Assembly (NCBI RefSeq): GCF_003711225.1
Contig: NZ_CP031030.1
Location: 4,588,001 to 4,652,000 of the forward strand
Source: Runella sp. SP2
GTDB taxonomy: Bacteria > Bacteroidota > Bacteroidia > Cytophagales > Spirosomataceae
Reading direction: 5' to 3'
DNA: 64,000 nt
Both the position numbers and the translations under genes were made by a program. Shown piece by piece: positions 3,611 to 64,000 of this stretch. The notes under the pieces were generated by a model that was given only the letters and a program-made list of their open reading frames with translations, had not been told where the DNA came from and made no database searches. Positions within the stretch are counted from its first letter, which is position 1; each line of letters begins with the position of its first letter.

Positions 3611-3655
3611 CCTCCCGAAAGTTTTAAACTTTCGGGAGGTTTCTTTTTTTAAACT
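3611..3655 (+). terminator. Rho-independent terminator after susD
   Basis: A perfect 14-bp inverted repeat (CCTCCCGAAAGTTT and its complement, one base between arms) is followed by TTTCTTTTTTT. The same core palindrome recurs around comM at 57671 and 59112. A partial third arm (AAACTTCCAGGAGG) follows immediately, so the structure may have been partly duplicated. Confidence 0.85.
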
Positions 3656-3673
3656 TCCAGGAGGTTTTTATTT

Positions 3674-4546
3674 TTATCCAAACAAATCACTTGATAAATA
3701 GCGGTCACCACGGTCGCACACGATAAAGACAATCACGCCTTCTTCGAGTTCATTGGCCAACTGAATCGCCGCGTGCGCCGCTCCTCCGCTACTCATTCCC
3801 GAAAAAATACCTTCTATTTTAGCCAAATCACGCGCCCGCTGCGTGGCATCGTCCTGCGATACCTCCATCACTCTATCAACGCGAGCAGGTTCAAAAATCT
3901 TTGGTAAGTATTCTTGTGGCCATTTCCGAATCCCTGGAATGCTCGACCCATCGGTGGGTTGGCAGCCTACAATCTGCACGTTAGGGTTTTGCTCTTTCAA
4001 ATAGCGCGACGTTCCCATAATTGTGCCCGTCGTTCCCATGGACGACACAAAATGCGTCACTTTCCCTTCGGTATCTCGCCAAATCTCGGGGCCAGTACTC
4101 CGATAATGCGCTAGATAATTATCAGGATTGGCAAACTGATTCAACATCAAATACCCGCCTTCGGCCACTTTGGCATCGGCATAGTCTCTGGCCGACTCAA
4201 TGGTATCCGTCAGAATTACTTTTGCCCCAAACGCCTCCATCGTAAGCACCCGCTCACGGGTAGAGTTTTTGGGCATGGTTAGCTCAATTTCAATGTCGTA
4301 TAAACGGGCTATCATCGCCAACGCAATGCCCGTGTTCCCGCTTGTGGCTTCGATGAGTTTCATCCCAGGTTTGATTTCCCCCCGCTCTACCGCTCCTTTT
4401 ATCATGCTATAGGCAGCGCGGTCTTTGACACTTCCTCCTGGGTTGTGGCCTTCGAGTTTAGCCAAAAGGGTTACTTTTGGGTTGGGATTTATCATTTTCA
4501 ACTCCACCAACGGAGTATTTCCTACAAAATCTAAAAGAGTGGGCAT
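3674..4546 (-). CDS. cysM: Cysteine synthase (CysM/CysK family, PLP-dependent)
   Basis: This 290-residue enzyme makes cysteine from an activated serine and sulfide or thiosulfate in the cytosol. The start is taken at ATG 4546 (MPTLLDFVGNTPLVEL), because the family begins right at this segment and the longer frame upstream has no counterpart. Visible motifs are the PLP lysine in GGSVKDRAAYSMI, the substrate loop EATSGNTGIALAM, and the phosphate-binding glycine loop SSMGTTGTIMG. The length is close to CysM (about 290-300 residues) and the C-terminus is short. CysM and CysK are hard to separate by eye. It would use the sulfide produced by the sulfite reductase at 14825, although the two are not in one operon. 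Confidence 0.9.
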   Translation of the reverse strand: MPTLLDFVGNTPLVELKMINPNPKVTLLAKLEGHNPGGSVKDRAAYSMIKGAVERGEIKPGMKLIEATSGNTGIALAMIARLYDIEIELTMPKNSTRERVLTMEAFGAKVILTDTIESARDYADAKVAEGGYLMLNQFANPDNYLAHYRSTGPEIWRDTEGKVTHFVSSMGTTGTIMGTSRYLKEQNPNVQIVGCQPTDGSSIPGIRKWPQEYLPKIFEPARVDRVMEVSQDDATQRARDLAKIEGIFSGMSSGGAAHAAIQLANELEEGVIVFIVCDRGDRYLSSDLFG

Positions 4547-20081: not shown

Positions 20082-20957
20082 TTATTGTGGGACGTAATTT
20101 AGTGGAACAATGACGTTGGTATCTTTTCTAGTAGCATAACTATATACCTTCATTCTAATATTCAGCGAGATTCGTTTATTGACAGGATTCCAAACCCCCG
20201 TTCCTGACAAAGTATCATATCCACTGGCAAACTGAGGAATCACTTGCTGAGGAATCGTCAGGGTATTATTTCCGTTGTCAATAAAATCGAGGGTTGGTTT
20301 TTCGGCTTGGAAACCTACGGGTGCCTCCCAGTTAAAAAACTGTTGAAAACCTATCAATCCAACGTTAATGTTGGAGATAGTATAACGTTTGCAATCCGTA
20401 CTTGAAATTTCAATATCAGCCAATTGATACGATTGGGTAGCATTGACGGGCAATTGCCCCGTATAAAGCCCATCCATCAAGCAAGCATCCCGAATGGTGA
20501 ACACCATTTTATTGCCCATTCCACCTTTTCCAAAACCCACTTGTACTTTGTCAGCAGGTCTCACTGCTGTCAGGGCAAACTCAATAGTACTCGATTCGAG
20601 TATGTTATTGGCATTATTGAGCAGGTACAAAGTAATTTCGCCAAAACTCTGGCCTACAGGAATAATCACTGTTCCTTTCGTACCCTCGATGCGGTAATCT
20701 CTGCCTTCACGGGCAGTACCACCTACGGTATAACTGATGTTGATTGACTCATTGAGTACAGCCCCGCCGTTGTGAACTCTGATTTTGATGGCTTTGGAAT
20801 AACTTTCCTTGAAACTGAGCGCAGTATCATTAAAAACCACAAAATTTCCTCCTTGGTAGATAATACGTTGTTCTTCACAGCCCGCCAGCCATAACCCCGC
20901 TGACACCATCAGAAAAACAAAAACGACTGATTTTATGATTGAATAGTTAGATTTCAT
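20082..20957 (-). CDS. Lipoprotein with Calx-beta/DUF4843-like N-terminal domain
   Basis: This is a 291-residue lipoprotein (lipobox WLAGC, Cys27). Residues 40-150 resemble a Calx-beta-like or DUF4843-type immunoglobulin-like domain (INISYTVGGTAREGRDYRI, ESSTIEFALTAVRP). The rest is beta-rich and unrecognised. Such proteins commonly follow susD genes and are thought to be accessory surface lipoproteins of the SusCD complex. A repeat-rich 146-base gap separates it from susD, so it may have its own expression level. Function unknown. Confidence 0.6.
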   Translation of the reverse strand: MKSNYSIIKSVVFVFLMVSAGLWLAGCEEQRIIYQGGNFVVFNDTALSFKESYSKAIKIRVHNGGAVLNESINISYTVGGTAREGRDYRIEGTKGTVIIPVGQSFGEITLYLLNNANNILESSTIEFALTAVRPADKVQVGFGKGGMGNKMVFTIRDACLMDGLYTGQLPVNATQSYQLADIEISSTDCKRYTISNINVGLIGFQQFFNWEAPVGFQAEKPTLDFIDNGNNTLTIPQQVIPQFASGYDTLSGTGVWNPVNKRISLNIRMKVYSYATRKDTNVIVPLNYVPQ

Positions 20958-20984
20958 TTTCAGATTTTTAATTTACTTTTTCAG

Positions 20985-21095
20985 TTTTACAGTTTCGGGT
21001 TTAACGTTTACTGTTTCGGGTTTACAGTTTGCTGTTTCGGGTTTACGGTTAATATTCTAACCTCAAACAGGAAACCCCAAACCCCAAACAGTAAA
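20985..21095. repeat. Low-complexity GTTTCGGGTTTAC repeats with an inverted copy
   Basis: Three or more copies of a 12-15 base unit (TTTACWGTTTCGGGT) lie at 20985-21047. An inverted relative (CCCCAAACCCCAAACAGTAAA, quoted from 21075 in two adjoining pieces) ends at 21095, so the RNA could fold back. The same unit recurs at 63345-63440, inside a reading frame. Confidence 0.8.
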
Positions 21096-21103
21096 GAGAA
21101 AAC

Positions 21104-22483
21104 CTAATAACCAGGATTCTGCTGTCCAACCAAAGAGGGGTTTCGTTGAATTTCAGTTTGTGGTATTGGCCAAAGCTCATACTTAACGTTCCAGTTGGTT
21201 GAAAAAGCGGACATCACTGCCTGCGCCCGCCCTGTACGCACAAGGTCGTACCAACGATGTCCTTCAAATGCCAACTCATAGACCCGTTCACGTTCGATAA
21301 TACTAAGCATTTCGCTTTGAGTGGCTGTTGTAATCAACGGAGGCTGTTCAGCTGCTACCAACCCATCACCTGCGCGCGTACGTAACCTATTAATATCTGC
21401 GATAGCCCCCGTTGTACCCGTAATTTTTCCCTGCTGCGCCCGTGCTTCCGCCCGAATCAAGTACATTTCTCCCAAACGAAAAACCACAAAATTGCGGTTA
21501 CTTTCATCCGCCGTTCCATACTTACGGAGTGTCCAACCATTGTCATTACCTTTTTGTTTGGTAAAATCAAACTCAAGGGTTTGGCTACGATTTCCTGACT
21601 CTCTCGACAACAACGACACCACCACTTGATTGGAAGGAACCACCTCTCTACGACCTACAAAATAATTATTAATATCTCCCGAGTAATCGTTGAGGGTATA
21701 TCCAAACTCAAAAATTGATTCTTGGGTAAAATCTCTGGTTACCACGTCATTATAAGAAACCAGTGAATAATTGGTTGAATTGATGAGAAGTGTGGCATAG
21801 GCTTCAGCCTGCGCCCAGTTTTTTTGGTAGAGATAATAGCGCGCTAGTGCAGCACGAGCGGCGTTTTTGGTGGCATATCCTGCAAATACGTTACGGTCTT
21901 GCGGGTCGCCATCAGGCAAATCAGCAAGTGCCGCTTGAAAATCTTCCAGTGCCCAAGTCAAAATCTCCTCTTTGGAAGCGCGTGGGATGGTACGGTTGGT
22001 AGCTAATGTCGTTGAAGTAACTTTGGGAATACCTCCAAAGGTATGCGCACCGATAAAATTGGCATACCCGCGTAAGAATTTGGCTTCTGCTGTCAGCACC
22101 TTCGCATCAGCCGCCCGCACACTCGCGATGGTTGGAAGGCGCTCTAGCACAAAATTGGCCAAATAAATCGAGCGAAACACACTCCCCCACAAAGCCCCAA
22201 CGACTCCGTTGGAAGGGGTAATTTGTTTGGTACCCAATTCTCGGTAATCCGTAAAAGTTCCTAGGTGAATAATGTTATCGGCCGTAAAATCGCCCGCTTG
22301 CACCGTAGGACTTCCAATGCTCCGTGCCGCCGAATACAACCCAATTCGTACCGAAGGCAAATCGCTGGCAGTGGTAAATACAATGTCATCAATCAGCAAA
22401 TCAACGGCAGGTGGGTCAAGAACCACCGTGTTACACGCCGACATGAAAGCTGTTAGAAGTAATGCGTATGATAAACGTTTCAT
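21104..22483 (-). CDS. SusD/RagB-family outer-membrane lipoprotein
   Basis: This 459-residue lipoprotein has lipobox MSAC (Cys17), followed by the SusD fold: the LRGYANFIGAHTFGGIP segment, TPR-like helices, YLIRAEARAQQG, and the C-terminal RVYELAFEGHRWYDLVRTGR then QNPGY ending. It lies 23 bases after the susC gene and would be its surface lid. It is shorter than the SusD at 1824 (585 residues). The cluster also encodes a protease rather than sugar-cleaving enzymes, so a RagB-like peptide-binding role is plausible but not proven. Confidence 0.95.
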   Translation of the reverse strand: MKRLSYALLLTAFMSACNTVVLDPPAVDLLIDDIVFTTASDLPSVRIGLYSAARSIGSPTVQAGDFTADNIIHLGTFTDYRELGTKQITPSNGVVGALWGSVFRSIYLANFVLERLPTIASVRAADAKVLTAEAKFLRGYANFIGAHTFGGIPKVTSTTLATNRTIPRASKEEILTWALEDFQAALADLPDGDPQDRNVFAGYATKNAARAALARYYLYQKNWAQAEAYATLLINSTNYSLVSYNDVVTRDFTQESIFEFGYTLNDYSGDINNYFVGRREVVPSNQVVVSLLSRESGNRSQTLEFDFTKQKGNDNGWTLRKYGTADESNRNFVVFRLGEMYLIRAEARAQQGKITGTTGAIADINRLRTRAGDGLVAAEQPPLITTATQSEMLSIIERERVYELAFEGHRWYDLVRTGRAQAVMSAFSTNWNVKYELWPIPQTEIQRNPSLVGQQNPGY

Positions 22484-62190: not shown

Positions 62191-62700
62191 ATGACTGAAA
62201 ACGAACTGATTCAACGCTGCCTCCAACACGACCGCTCTGCGCAAAGGTTGCTTTATGACCGCTACAAAACGGCCATGTACACCCTCGCGTATCGGATGAC
62301 GGGCGACTTTGACCAAGCCAATAGTGTATTGCAAGACACGTTTTTGGCCGTTTTTCAGAACTTGAGCCAGTACCGTAGTGAAGCGACGTTGGGAGCGTGG
62401 ATAAAAGCGATTTTGGTTCGTAAAGCGCACCGAAGTTCGCAGCAAACGCCTGCTTATTTATTGATGGAAACGCTCCCTTCCGATACTTCGTCGGTCGATT
62501 GGGGCAACGATGCCATTGACGCTGCCCACCTCGAAAAAGCCATTTTGAGCCTACCCGAAGGCGCGCGGGCGGTATTTGTGCTCATTGAGGTGGAAGGCTA
62601 CACCCATCGAGAAGTAGCGGAGTTGTTGGGCGTTTCGGAAGGGACGTCGAAATCGCAGTTAAACTATGCCAAAAAGCGGCTGAGGGAATTGTTAAAATAA
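62191..62700 (+). CDS. ECF-type RNA polymerase sigma factor
   Basis: This is a 169-residue sigma-70 family protein of the ECF group. Region 2 is at about residues 22-85 (DRYKTAMYTLAYRMTGDFDQ, VLQDTFLAVFQNLSQYR). Region 4 lies near the end (LPEGARAVFVLIEVEGYTHR, VAELLGVSEGTSKSQLNYA). ATG 62191 follows the usual start. The gene after it encodes a one-segment membrane protein that may be its anti-sigma factor, and then an exported protein. The three probably form one operon. Confidence 0.94.
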   Translation: MTENELIQRCLQHDRSAQRLLYDRYKTAMYTLAYRMTGDFDQANSVLQDTFLAVFQNLSQYRSEATLGAWIKAILVRKAHRSSQQTPAYLLMETLPSDTSSVDWGNDAIDAAHLEKAILSLPEGARAVFVLIEVEGYTHREVAELLGVSEGTSKSQLNYAKKRLRELLK

Positions 62701-62713
62701 TAACAAGCGCATT

Positions 62714-63277
62714 ATGTCAGACCTACTCAAACATAAACTTCCTACCTACACCCCACCCGAATCGGTTTGGGAGGCGGTGGAGGAGGGCCTAAATGAGGCT
62801 CCGTTGAAAGAAGCGCTCCAGCACTTGCCCGCGCACGAACCTCCCGCACAGGTATGGTTAGAGCTGGAGGAAACACTCCCCACTGTCCGTCCGCAACAGT
62901 GGTGGCGATACGCGGCAGCAGCGGCAATAACGGGCTTGTTGTGTTTTGTTGGGTATATTTTTCTGACCTCCCAATCGGAAGATGTTAAACTTAGCTATTC
63001 CCAAGAAAAAGCCCCCCCAACTACCCTGCCAGCTCAAAATGAGGCCCTCGACCAACAATACGAGAAATTACAGGCGTTCTGCGAAACAAAAACACCTGTG
63101 TGCGAAAAACCAGAATTTAAGGACTTAAAACACCAACTCGACGAACTCACCATCGCCAGCCGACAACTCAAAGAAGCCTTGGGCGAGTACAACACGGACG
63201 CTTCACTTTCGTCACAACTCTCTGATATTGAGCACGAACGAGCGGAACTATTAAAAAAACTGTCGGAACGGATTTGA
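62714..63277 (+). CDS. Putative anti-sigma factor, single-pass membrane protein
   Basis: This is a 187-residue protein with a cytosolic N-terminal part (about 70 residues, with two repeats PPESVWEAVEEGL and PPAQVWLELEETL). A single membrane helix follows (YAAAAAITGLLCFVGYIFL), then a periplasmic helical tail with Cys pairs. This is the shape of an anti-sigma factor next to an ECF sigma gene, but no zinc-binding HxxxC motif is seen. It follows the sigma gene by 13 bases. Alternatively it is an unrelated regulator. Confidence 0.7.
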   Translation: MSDLLKHKLPTYTPPESVWEAVEEGLNEAPLKEALQHLPAHEPPAQVWLELEETLPTVRPQQWWRYAAAAAITGLLCFVGYIFLTSQSEDVKLSYSQEKAPPTTLPAQNEALDQQYEKLQAFCETKTPVCEKPEFKDLKHQLDELTIASRQLKEALGEYNTDASLSSQLSDIEHERAELLKKLSERI

Positions 63278-63299: not shown

Positions 63300-64000
63300 A
63301 TGAAGAATATTTTGCACTTTATCCACAACTTTTCCCCACCTGTTTTTATTCGTTTGGGGTTTCGAGTTTACTGTTTCGGGTTTACTGTTTCGGGTTTATG
63401 GTTTTGGGTTTACGGTTTCGGGTTTATGGTTTTGGGTTTTGCCCTTTGCCTTTTGCCCCTTGCCCCTTGCCCTTTACCTATTTCAATTTTGCGGTTTTTC
63501 AGTTTTCCATTTAACATTTTGCGGTTTGCCCCTTGCCCCTCGCCCCTTGCCCTTTGCTCTTTACCCCTCGCCCTTTGCCTCTTGCCTTTTGTTTCCTCTG
63601 CTCAAACGTTGCAGGTGATTACCAAAACGATAGAGAAAACCTTTGAAGTGCCCCAATACGCAAAGGTGCAGGTGTGGGGCGAGCGGAGCGATATAGAGAT
63701 AATGACTTGGAATAAAAATGAGATAAAAGCGACCATTGAGCTTACCGCAAAACACCCCACACGCAGCACGGCTGAGAAAGATTTGGAAACCTTGCATTAT
63801 ACCACCGACCAAAAAGGGAAAACGGTGAGTCTGCATAATTTTGTAGTACTGGCCAAAAACGGAAGTAAACCCCAATCCAACCTCAAAGCACGTTTTACGT
63901 TGTTTGTACCTGCCAATTGCGCCGTAGAAATTCAAAACAGTTTTGGGAAAATTTCCATCAAAGGGCTACAAACTCAAACCATGCAATTGCAAACAGAATT
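63300..64000 (+). CDS. Exported protein with repeat-expanded signal region, partial
   Basis: The frame from ATG 63300 is open to the end of the window. After a start MKNILHFIHNF, the next 85 or so residues are translated low-complexity repeats (GTTTCGGG and TGCCCCTTGCCC units) and are very hydrophobic (for example GLWFWVYGFGFMVLGFALC). They end in PFVSSAQT, a signal-peptidase site. The mature part (VITKTIEKTFEVPQYAKVQV, then YGERSDIEIM-like, and SNLKARFTLFVPAN) resembles DUF4097-type surface beta-sheet proteins, often found after sigma/anti-sigma pairs. The start cannot be fixed by homology here. Confidence 0.7.
   Translation, partial: MKNILHFIHNFSPPVFIRLGFRVYCFGFTVSGLWFWVYGFGFMVLGFALCLLPLAPCPLPISILRFFSFPFNILRFAPCPSPLALCSLPLALCLLPFVSSAQTLQVITKTIEKTFEVPQYAKVQVWGERSDIEIMTWNKNEIKATIELTAKHPTRSTAEKDLETLHYTTDQKGKTVSLHNFVVLAKNGSKPQSNLKARFTLFVPANCAVEIQNSFGKISIKGLQTQTMQLQTE
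63345..63592. repeat. GTTTCGGGTTTA and TTGCCCCTTGCCC repeats inside a reading frame
   Basis: Four to five copies of a GTTTCGGG/GTTTTGGG-type unit (63345-63440) are followed by TGCCCCTTGCCC-type units (63441-63480, 63527-63592). They resemble the intergenic block at 20985-21095. All units read through in the frame of the gene at 63300 without a stop. Confidence 0.8.

Follow-up and report, generated by a model that had tools for sequence, protein, structure and literature searches.

The gene at the right end of the window, by which we mean the whole 64,000-nucleotide stretch of the Runella sp. SP2 genome that was analysed, carries about 240 bases of 7-base repeats (63352-63591) in frame close to its start. 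The question is whether a signal peptide has here taken in repeat DNA of a kind found elsewhere between genes, as the first-pass annotation proposed, or whether the protein starts downstream of the repeats, which was its alternative. It is quite probable that the leader is translated and acts as a signal peptide, with a middle part built from 7-nt repeats that are also present in non-coding DNA and are kept in frame.

The locus and its leader

The features of the locus are the following.

62191..62700, + strand: ECF-type sigma factor gene, upstream (Pfam Sigma70_r4_2 1.6e-15, Sigma70_r2 4.9e-9)
62714..63277, + strand: ORF for a small protein with one transmembrane-like stretch (Pfam match sub-threshold only)
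63300..63302, + strand: ATG start, with an identical ATGAAGAATATTTTGCAC at the same position in the window's genome, R. defluvii and R. limosa
63352..63439, + strand: array of the GTTTCGG/GTTTACG type (GTTT type; TRF period 7/14/28, GGTTTCGGGTTTAC; genome pattern search)
63437..63591, + strand: array of the TTGCCCC type (GCC type) with an embedded TTTTGCGGTTTTTCAG block (TRF period 7/14/21; genome pattern search)
63594..63608, + strand: SSA^QT, probable signal peptidase site; the AQT boundary is common to the nearest orthologs
63603..64000, running past the window, + strand: mature Toast-rack (PspC C-terminal)-like protein (PF22744)

The sigma factor gene, the small gene and the repeat-bearing gene are co-directional, and judged by its position the product of the small gene would be anti-sigma-like. 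The ORF from the ATG at 63300 is 319 aa long and ends outside the window (L039 1500-2459). Its match to PF22744 lies close to the cut-off of 27 bits, with 27.1 bits (3.6e-6) for the part inside the window and 26.6, just below, for the full protein.

The leader consists of 98 residues before SSAQT (residues 99-103), mostly coded by degenerate 7-nt repeats of the two families. The first array encodes hydrophobic residues rich in G, F, V and L, and the second LPLAPCP-like residues. The sequence and the ORF bear out the earlier description of repeats that run in frame from this ATG and of a hydrophobic leader that ends at a cleavage-type site, the cleavage being putative. Judged by hydropathy, the layout is that of a Sec-type signal, with a positive n-region (K2, R18 and R22 are basic, and none of the 98 residues is acidic), a hydrophobic core and a cleavage site; hydrophobic segments start at residues 40 and 84 (Kyte-Doolittle 15-residue means 2.36 and 2.29). 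Two properties count against an export leader: at 98 residues it is unusually long for a signal peptide, where about 20-35 is usual for the Sec type, and it has many prolines. Elsewhere in the window, at 3622-3676, there is a 25-nt tandem repeat of 2.2 copies (TRF), which is unrelated to the 7-nt families.

Orthologs in related genomes

The window's genome (G000, 7.6 Mb) was compared within a set of 59 genomes, namely its own and those from its genus, family and order. Its nearest relatives are named Runella species, among them R. defluvii (G001), R. limosa (G004) and, in all likelihood, R. aurantiaca (G012). With the mature part as query, Toast-rack matches were found in 33 of the 59 genomes, and the best 16 of the 33, own genome included, were analysed. 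The leaders of distant orthologs were measured up to the start of the match, possibly a few residues inside the mature part, from a start codon chosen by us; the leader of G035 has 14 residues as scored, and 26 if an upstream ATG is used.

The window gene has the same DNA at its start, and the same mature protein, as its orthologs in R. defluvii and R. limosa. Their leaders, of 98, 137 and 68 residues respectively, are all open and in frame and are made from the same two repeat families, as expected if a signal peptide has absorbed an in-frame repeat expansion. A common leader of 50 residues with TTTTACATT-type units is found in G011, G012 and G002, one of 24 residues with GCTCCTGGCTCCTCGCTTCTTGC in G010, and one of 47 residues with TTTTCAC units in G018, which belongs to another genus. 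The leaders of the eight nearest orthologs, window gene included, are all 7-nt periodic (lag 7, P<0.01 against codon shuffles), in four unrelated sequences. None of the eight distant orthologs passes at lag 7, and their leaders have about 14-29 residues. The comparison that the first-pass annotation had called for therefore comes out in favour of an expansion, and orthologs with the same long leader free of repeats were not seen among those analysed.

The alternative of a true start after the repeats found no support, because fewer than 10 residues would then be left before the cleavage site and the signal peptide would be lost. A start inside the array, with the upstream repeats as 5' untranslated DNA, is a related possibility: the ATG at 63426 would give a leader of 56 residues, R. 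defluvii has an equivalent ATG, and the final part of the leader alone (RFAPCPSPLALCSLPLALCLLPFVSSA) resembles a signal peptide. We consider such a start unlikely, since R. limosa, after the conserved start, has TTG but neither ATG nor GTG until the mature protein is reached, since the frame from the upstream ATG is preserved in the three species, and since LptE, another gene with arrays, has an identical MILKK start in 11/11 genomes ahead of its arrays. What speaks against an export leader in R. limosa is that no stretch of 15 residues in its Toast-rack leader reaches a Kyte-Doolittle mean of 1.6.

Repeats are prone to sequencing and assembly errors, but an artefact is hardly credible when the separate genomes of R. 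defluvii and R. limosa have related arrays at the same place and other species have different ones.

Frame preservation and substitution

Start motifs were located in the DNA irrespective of frame before the lengths were compared. Between close species there were seven non-zero net length differences, two in the Toast-rack gene, three in the gene for an HlyD-type lipoprotein and two in LptE, and all seven are divisible by 3 ((1/3)^7=4.6e-4). The LptE net lengths include a 3-nt offset, two loci beginning one residue later, which leaves divisibility unaffected. For LptE 11/13 genomes were used, G002 (locus misplaced, contig end) and G005 (no locus) being dropped, and for the HlyD-type gene 12/13, G002 (partial match) being dropped. 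The leader alignments include individual gaps of 21, 42 and 63 nt. Four single gaps in the Toast-rack alignments are not multiples of 3, namely 1 and 53 nt against R. defluvii and 28 and 20 nt against R. limosa; these are changes split by the aligner, and only their sums with the other gaps are divisible by 3.

An array outside genes was used for comparison of gap lengths.

20978..21050, + strand: non-coding GTTT-family array (TRF; between ORFs 20082-20957 and 21104-22483)

When this array in the window's genome is aligned with its orthologs in R. limosa, R. defluvii and G008, 3/16 gaps are multiples of 3, and gaps of 7 nt are found against each of the three.

Over 89 codons, the leader of the window gene differs from that of R. 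defluvii by 11 synonymous and 9 non-synonymous changes, a larger synonymous share than under neutrality (P=0.002). The synonymous excess is not significant for the Toast-rack leader against R. limosa (5/10, P=0.22) or for LptE (4/5, P=0.17), and is absent from the HlyD-type leaders against R. defluvii (synonymous/non-synonymous 0/3). The leader evolves faster than the mature protein, with a pN of 0.044 as compared to 0.006.

Contingency loci have a known layout, and a gene that encodes an exported protein and carries 7-nt units close to its 5' end would fit it. One unit gained or lost would shift the frame and make the gene phase-variable. Stops within the leader number 0 in the used frame and 1 in each of the other two + strand frames. 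We nevertheless regard phase variation as very improbable. The units are degenerate, so slippage should be lower, and an in-frame ATG precedes any stop in all leaders of the HlyD-type gene (12), LptE (11) and the Toast-rack gene (16), a weak statement for leaders without a shared start motif. The comparison, which is one between species, turned up no ortholog that is out of frame.

Periodicity in signal peptides

Five signal-peptide genes were chosen for the periodicity test by the arrays that they carry in the window's genome, a choice that did not extend to arrays of unrelated sequence elsewhere. Their leaders pass at lag 7 in 26/46 cases and at lag 7 or 14 in 30/46, and at the control lags 5, 8, 10 and 11 the same 46 leaders gave P<0.01 in 4/184 tests. 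Among control signal-peptide-like starts of the window's genome, picked by a hydropathy rule and not by a dedicated predictor, only 2/118 pass at lag 7 and 3/118 at lag 14, which is about the control-lag rate.

We rejected the idea that signal peptides are built of 7-nt repeats throughout the genome: in 119 starts from 464 kb, lag 7 did not stand out from the control lags, the mean similarity giving a z of 2.7 at lag 7, 3.1 at lag 8 and 3.5 at lag 11. Most signal peptides of the genome are without such repeats, so the array leaders are a feature of a few genes. A slight excess of 11-nt periodicity was seen in signal-peptide DNA (6/118 at P<0.01; window and L212-L231).

Arrays in other genes

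Arrays were found in 14 genes when families are counted once, including a large-protein family with 18 clusters, and when two cases are left out: an 892-aa ORF and a Lnb-like gene (cluster 2878312), which has no ATG before its signal peptide. In five of the genes the array is in the signal peptide; these are the window gene and those for an HlyD/CusB-type lipoprotein, LptE, an MGH1-like glycoside hydrolase and a protein with a weak fn3 match. The remaining genes encode the large-protein family, LigA, a MeaB-methylmalonyl-CoA mutase fusion, a heavy-metal-ATPase-like protein, a KdtA-like protein (two arrays), a sigma-54 regulator, an FG-GAP protein, a 2-oxoacid dehydrogenase E2 and a PD-(D/E)XK protein.

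Signal peptides make up 2.8% of the called coding bases, and a share of 5/14 array genes is far above this (P=2.7e-5). The excess remains without the window gene (4/13, P=3.5e-4), with the 892-aa ORF added (5/15, 3.9e-5), and with that ORF added and the window gene left out (4/14, 4.8e-4). The hydrophobic strand is read in 5/5 signal-peptide arrays as compared to 3/10 other in-gene arrays (P=0.019; P=0.035 without the window gene). This is consistent with what each strand encodes, hydrophobic residues on one and hydrophilic residues or stops on the other: the products are LPLAPCP and GARGKGQ for the GCC type, and GFGFTVSGLRFRVY and a stop-containing peptide for the other family. The orientation bias is partly explained by which of the two strands is free of stops and hydrophobic.

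The HlyD-type leaders have 71 (window's genome), 50 (R. defluvii), 32 (R. limosa) and 39 residues (G008), with gaps of 63, 54, 21, 18 and 15 nt. In G012 the leader has 20 residues, about half of it CTTTTGC-type repeat, and in G007 the units are of a TTTTTGC type. The LptE start, judged by shared DNA, appears to overlap the preceding gene at its end. GTTT units come next in four species. In G007 the start is followed by AAAGTGG units, coding a basic KWKVESKKWKVE stretch, and then by TTTACTG units (LLFTVYCLLFAF). The leader of the fn3 protein has 22 residues in R. limosa and 40 in the window's genome, and for the glycoside hydrolase 2/5 species have a leader that passes at lag 7. Another exported-looking protein, in G007 (L270), has an array before LSPSANAQ; it was found through a GCC-type match and identified by eye.

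In R. limosa LptE (L202), hydrophobic GTTT units are followed by units of the same family on the opposite strand and then by the usual lipoprotein signal, so the N-terminus would run from hydrophobic to polar and back to hydrophobic.

Signal peptides tolerate sequence change, and the arrays might be neutral passengers, any stop-free hydrophobic insertion being tolerated and selection acting only against loss of the frame. That unrelated repeats occupy the same place in different species fits such an explanation, which to us comes close to an even chance without reaching it. Ordinary signal peptides are without arrays (2/118 at lag 7), yet the same three genes carry them across much of the genus, which speaks against passengers; the recurrence could also mean that the site persists, rather than selection. 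Passengers and signal peptides supplied by repeats differ only in whether the arrays do work, so the two explanations are not mutually exclusive.

The 18 clusters of the large-protein family lie in paralogous proteins (G000 2998690 to 4399244 and 7409148; L056, L063, L114-L118, L121, L122, L125-L129, L174, L049). They are of the GCC type, read on the hydrophilic strand, in a linker just before a C-terminal (L/M)PNPV domain and 83-107 codons ahead of the stop; in one member tested the domain is a T9SS type A sorting domain (TIGR04183, 1.8e-11). The KdtA-like glycosyltransferase (L124 3890-5209) has a GCC-type array on the hydrophilic strand at codon 37, found also in R. defluvii (L244) and G007 (L268), and a GTTT-type array on the hydrophobic strand at codon 298. 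In the linkers of the E2 acyltransferase and the metal-ATPase-like protein (L068 and L067), AGTCCAT and AGTCACC types seem to adjoin the array, judged by eye from the protein only.

Repeat families across the genome

A three-unit pattern of the GCC type has 84 matches in the window's genome and its reversed control 0; the GTTT-type pattern has 60 and its control 1. Both families consist of 7-nt tandem units at many sites, above chance, and can be classed as heptanucleotide repeat families. The GCC type is abundant only in the window's genome (84) and in R. defluvii (82) among the 59 genomes; R. limosa has 4 matches, all remaining genomes have <=5, and any match at all is found in 13/59.

Genes were called by a codon score of our own that misses some genes, such as the 892-aa ORF at 475 kb, which scored negative. 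This ORF (L075 186-2864) is membrane-like with GTTT-type arrays on the opposite strand; it has no Pfam match, and it may be a gene overlooked by the score.

The view that such repeats elsewhere lie between genes holds only in part. Of the 27 GTTT-type clusters, 20 are in neither a called gene nor a long ORF, 6 are in or at genes and 1 is in the uncalled 892-aa ORF. Of the 35 GCC-type clusters, 28 are in coding ORFs and 7 outside called genes; 18 of the 28 belong to the large-protein family, including cluster 3722812, which scored only 0.7 and was retained for its family likeness. In the 464-kb sample there were six lag-7 runs, four outside genes, one in the 892-aa ORF and the window's own, and no such run inside a called gene beyond the signal peptides.

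That no stop arises in the leader is correct for the used frame, and we had considered it as evidence of selection, a reading that was rejected after simulation of arrays from the genome's own non-coding units. Simulated GCC-type arrays of 252 nt, drawn from 26 units, are open with P=1.00 on either strand, and GTTT-type arrays of the same length with P=0.56 in sense and 0.05 in antisense; real GCC-type arrays have 101/102 sense and 97/102 antisense frames open. The lack of stops is weak evidence, because stops hardly ever arise in GCC-type repeats.

Outside called genes there is a TTGCCCC array with some 14 almost perfect units (L078 2001-2096; G000 1950103-1950198), and R. defluvii has a similar one (L243). 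The GCC-type survey of R. defluvii covered 67 of its 82 matches, which form 27 clusters. Two of these are orthologous to known cases (the window gene and the HlyD-type gene), and of the other 25, 19 are in genes and 6 are not, with no new signal-peptide case among them. One candidate, L259, was put aside when its array proved to precede the likely ATG, and an array in a P-type ATPase-like transmembrane stretch (L261) may be there by chance.

A probable source of signal peptides

Directly observed are the array and its frame, the conserved start and mature domain, the net changes that preserve the frame, and the recurrence in other exported proteins and species. From these we infer a protein start at 63300, export by means of the leader, and the way in which the arrays mutate. 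Our best reading of the sequences is that 7-nt repeats have repeatedly supplied the leaders of certain exported proteins, with the frame kept by selection.

Since 7 and 3 are coprime, every frame of a perfect 7-nt array gives one and the same cyclic heptapeptide; each strand has one peptide, and only the strand matters. A hydrophobic, stop-free strand (LPLAPCP or GFGFTVSGLRFRVY) could act as the core of a signal peptide, and the opposite GCC-type strand (GARGKGQ) as a linker. Array units would be gained and lost, probably by slippage or recombination, and selection would retain a change only if the frame is restored; several changes measure 21, 42 or 63 nt, three heptamers or a multiple of this.

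It is conceivable that some Runella signal peptides are lasting harbours of 7-nt repeats, refilled by whichever family is active in the species, with the strand deciding between signal peptide and linker. The site of the array would then persist as its sequence is replaced, the export signal would be remade repeatedly from repeat DNA, and strand sorting would be a general route from non-coding repeats to protein parts. We offer this wider proposal tentatively and would sooner doubt it than build on it.

Intergenic heptanucleotide repeats are known from several bacterial phyla, and the cyanobacterial STRR are one such family. Others, according to the parts of the papers at hand, are TAACTGA in Beggiatoaceae, cyanobacteria and some Bacteroidetes, GGGAATC in Xanthomonas and GGGGATT in Nostoc (PMC4679880, PMC4692102). 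They are like those of Runella in being 7-nt direct repeats between genes, in genome-specific families, and in lying in some cases inside ORFs, mainly at the protein periphery; in the TAACTGA repeat, every frame of one strand meets stops, whereas the opposite strand is open (PMC4679880, PMC4692102). The unit sequences differ, and the same parts of these papers mention neither signal peptides nor in-frame turnover between species, nor a strand chosen according to the part of the protein; the term 'signal peptide' has 0 occurrences in PMC4692102, and none of 5 listed uses of 'signal' in PMC4679880 is about signal peptides. The case in PMC2759123, as far as the portion at hand sets it out, is a single one with a 168-bp MITE-like unit, and relatives carry unrelated signal peptides; in Runella, by contrast, tandem 7-nt arrays of variable length are found in several genes and species. 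Among the matches listed in the open-access literature, no account of 7-nt repeats in signal peptides was found.

The palindromic elements of Rickettsia, which Ogata et al. reportedly described in 2000, are said to be repeats that have entered functional proteins in frame, at sites where an insertion is tolerated. They are palindromic and about 100-150 bp long, not 7-nt arrays, and are not known to be tied to signal peptides. What seems new here, judged by the open-access literature, is that tandem 7-nt arrays form the body of several signal peptides, change length in frame, and have their strand matched to the protein part.

Our results suggest that junk-like repeat DNA can remake bacterial export signals. 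If this is true, the starts of such genes may be misplaced, which is a warning to gene finders and signal-peptide predictors. There would also be a simple rule for repeats that enter proteins, a unit length not divisible by 3 giving one peptide per strand. A living genus would then show export signals arising, time and again, from repeat DNA, and the ortholog series would catch the steps.
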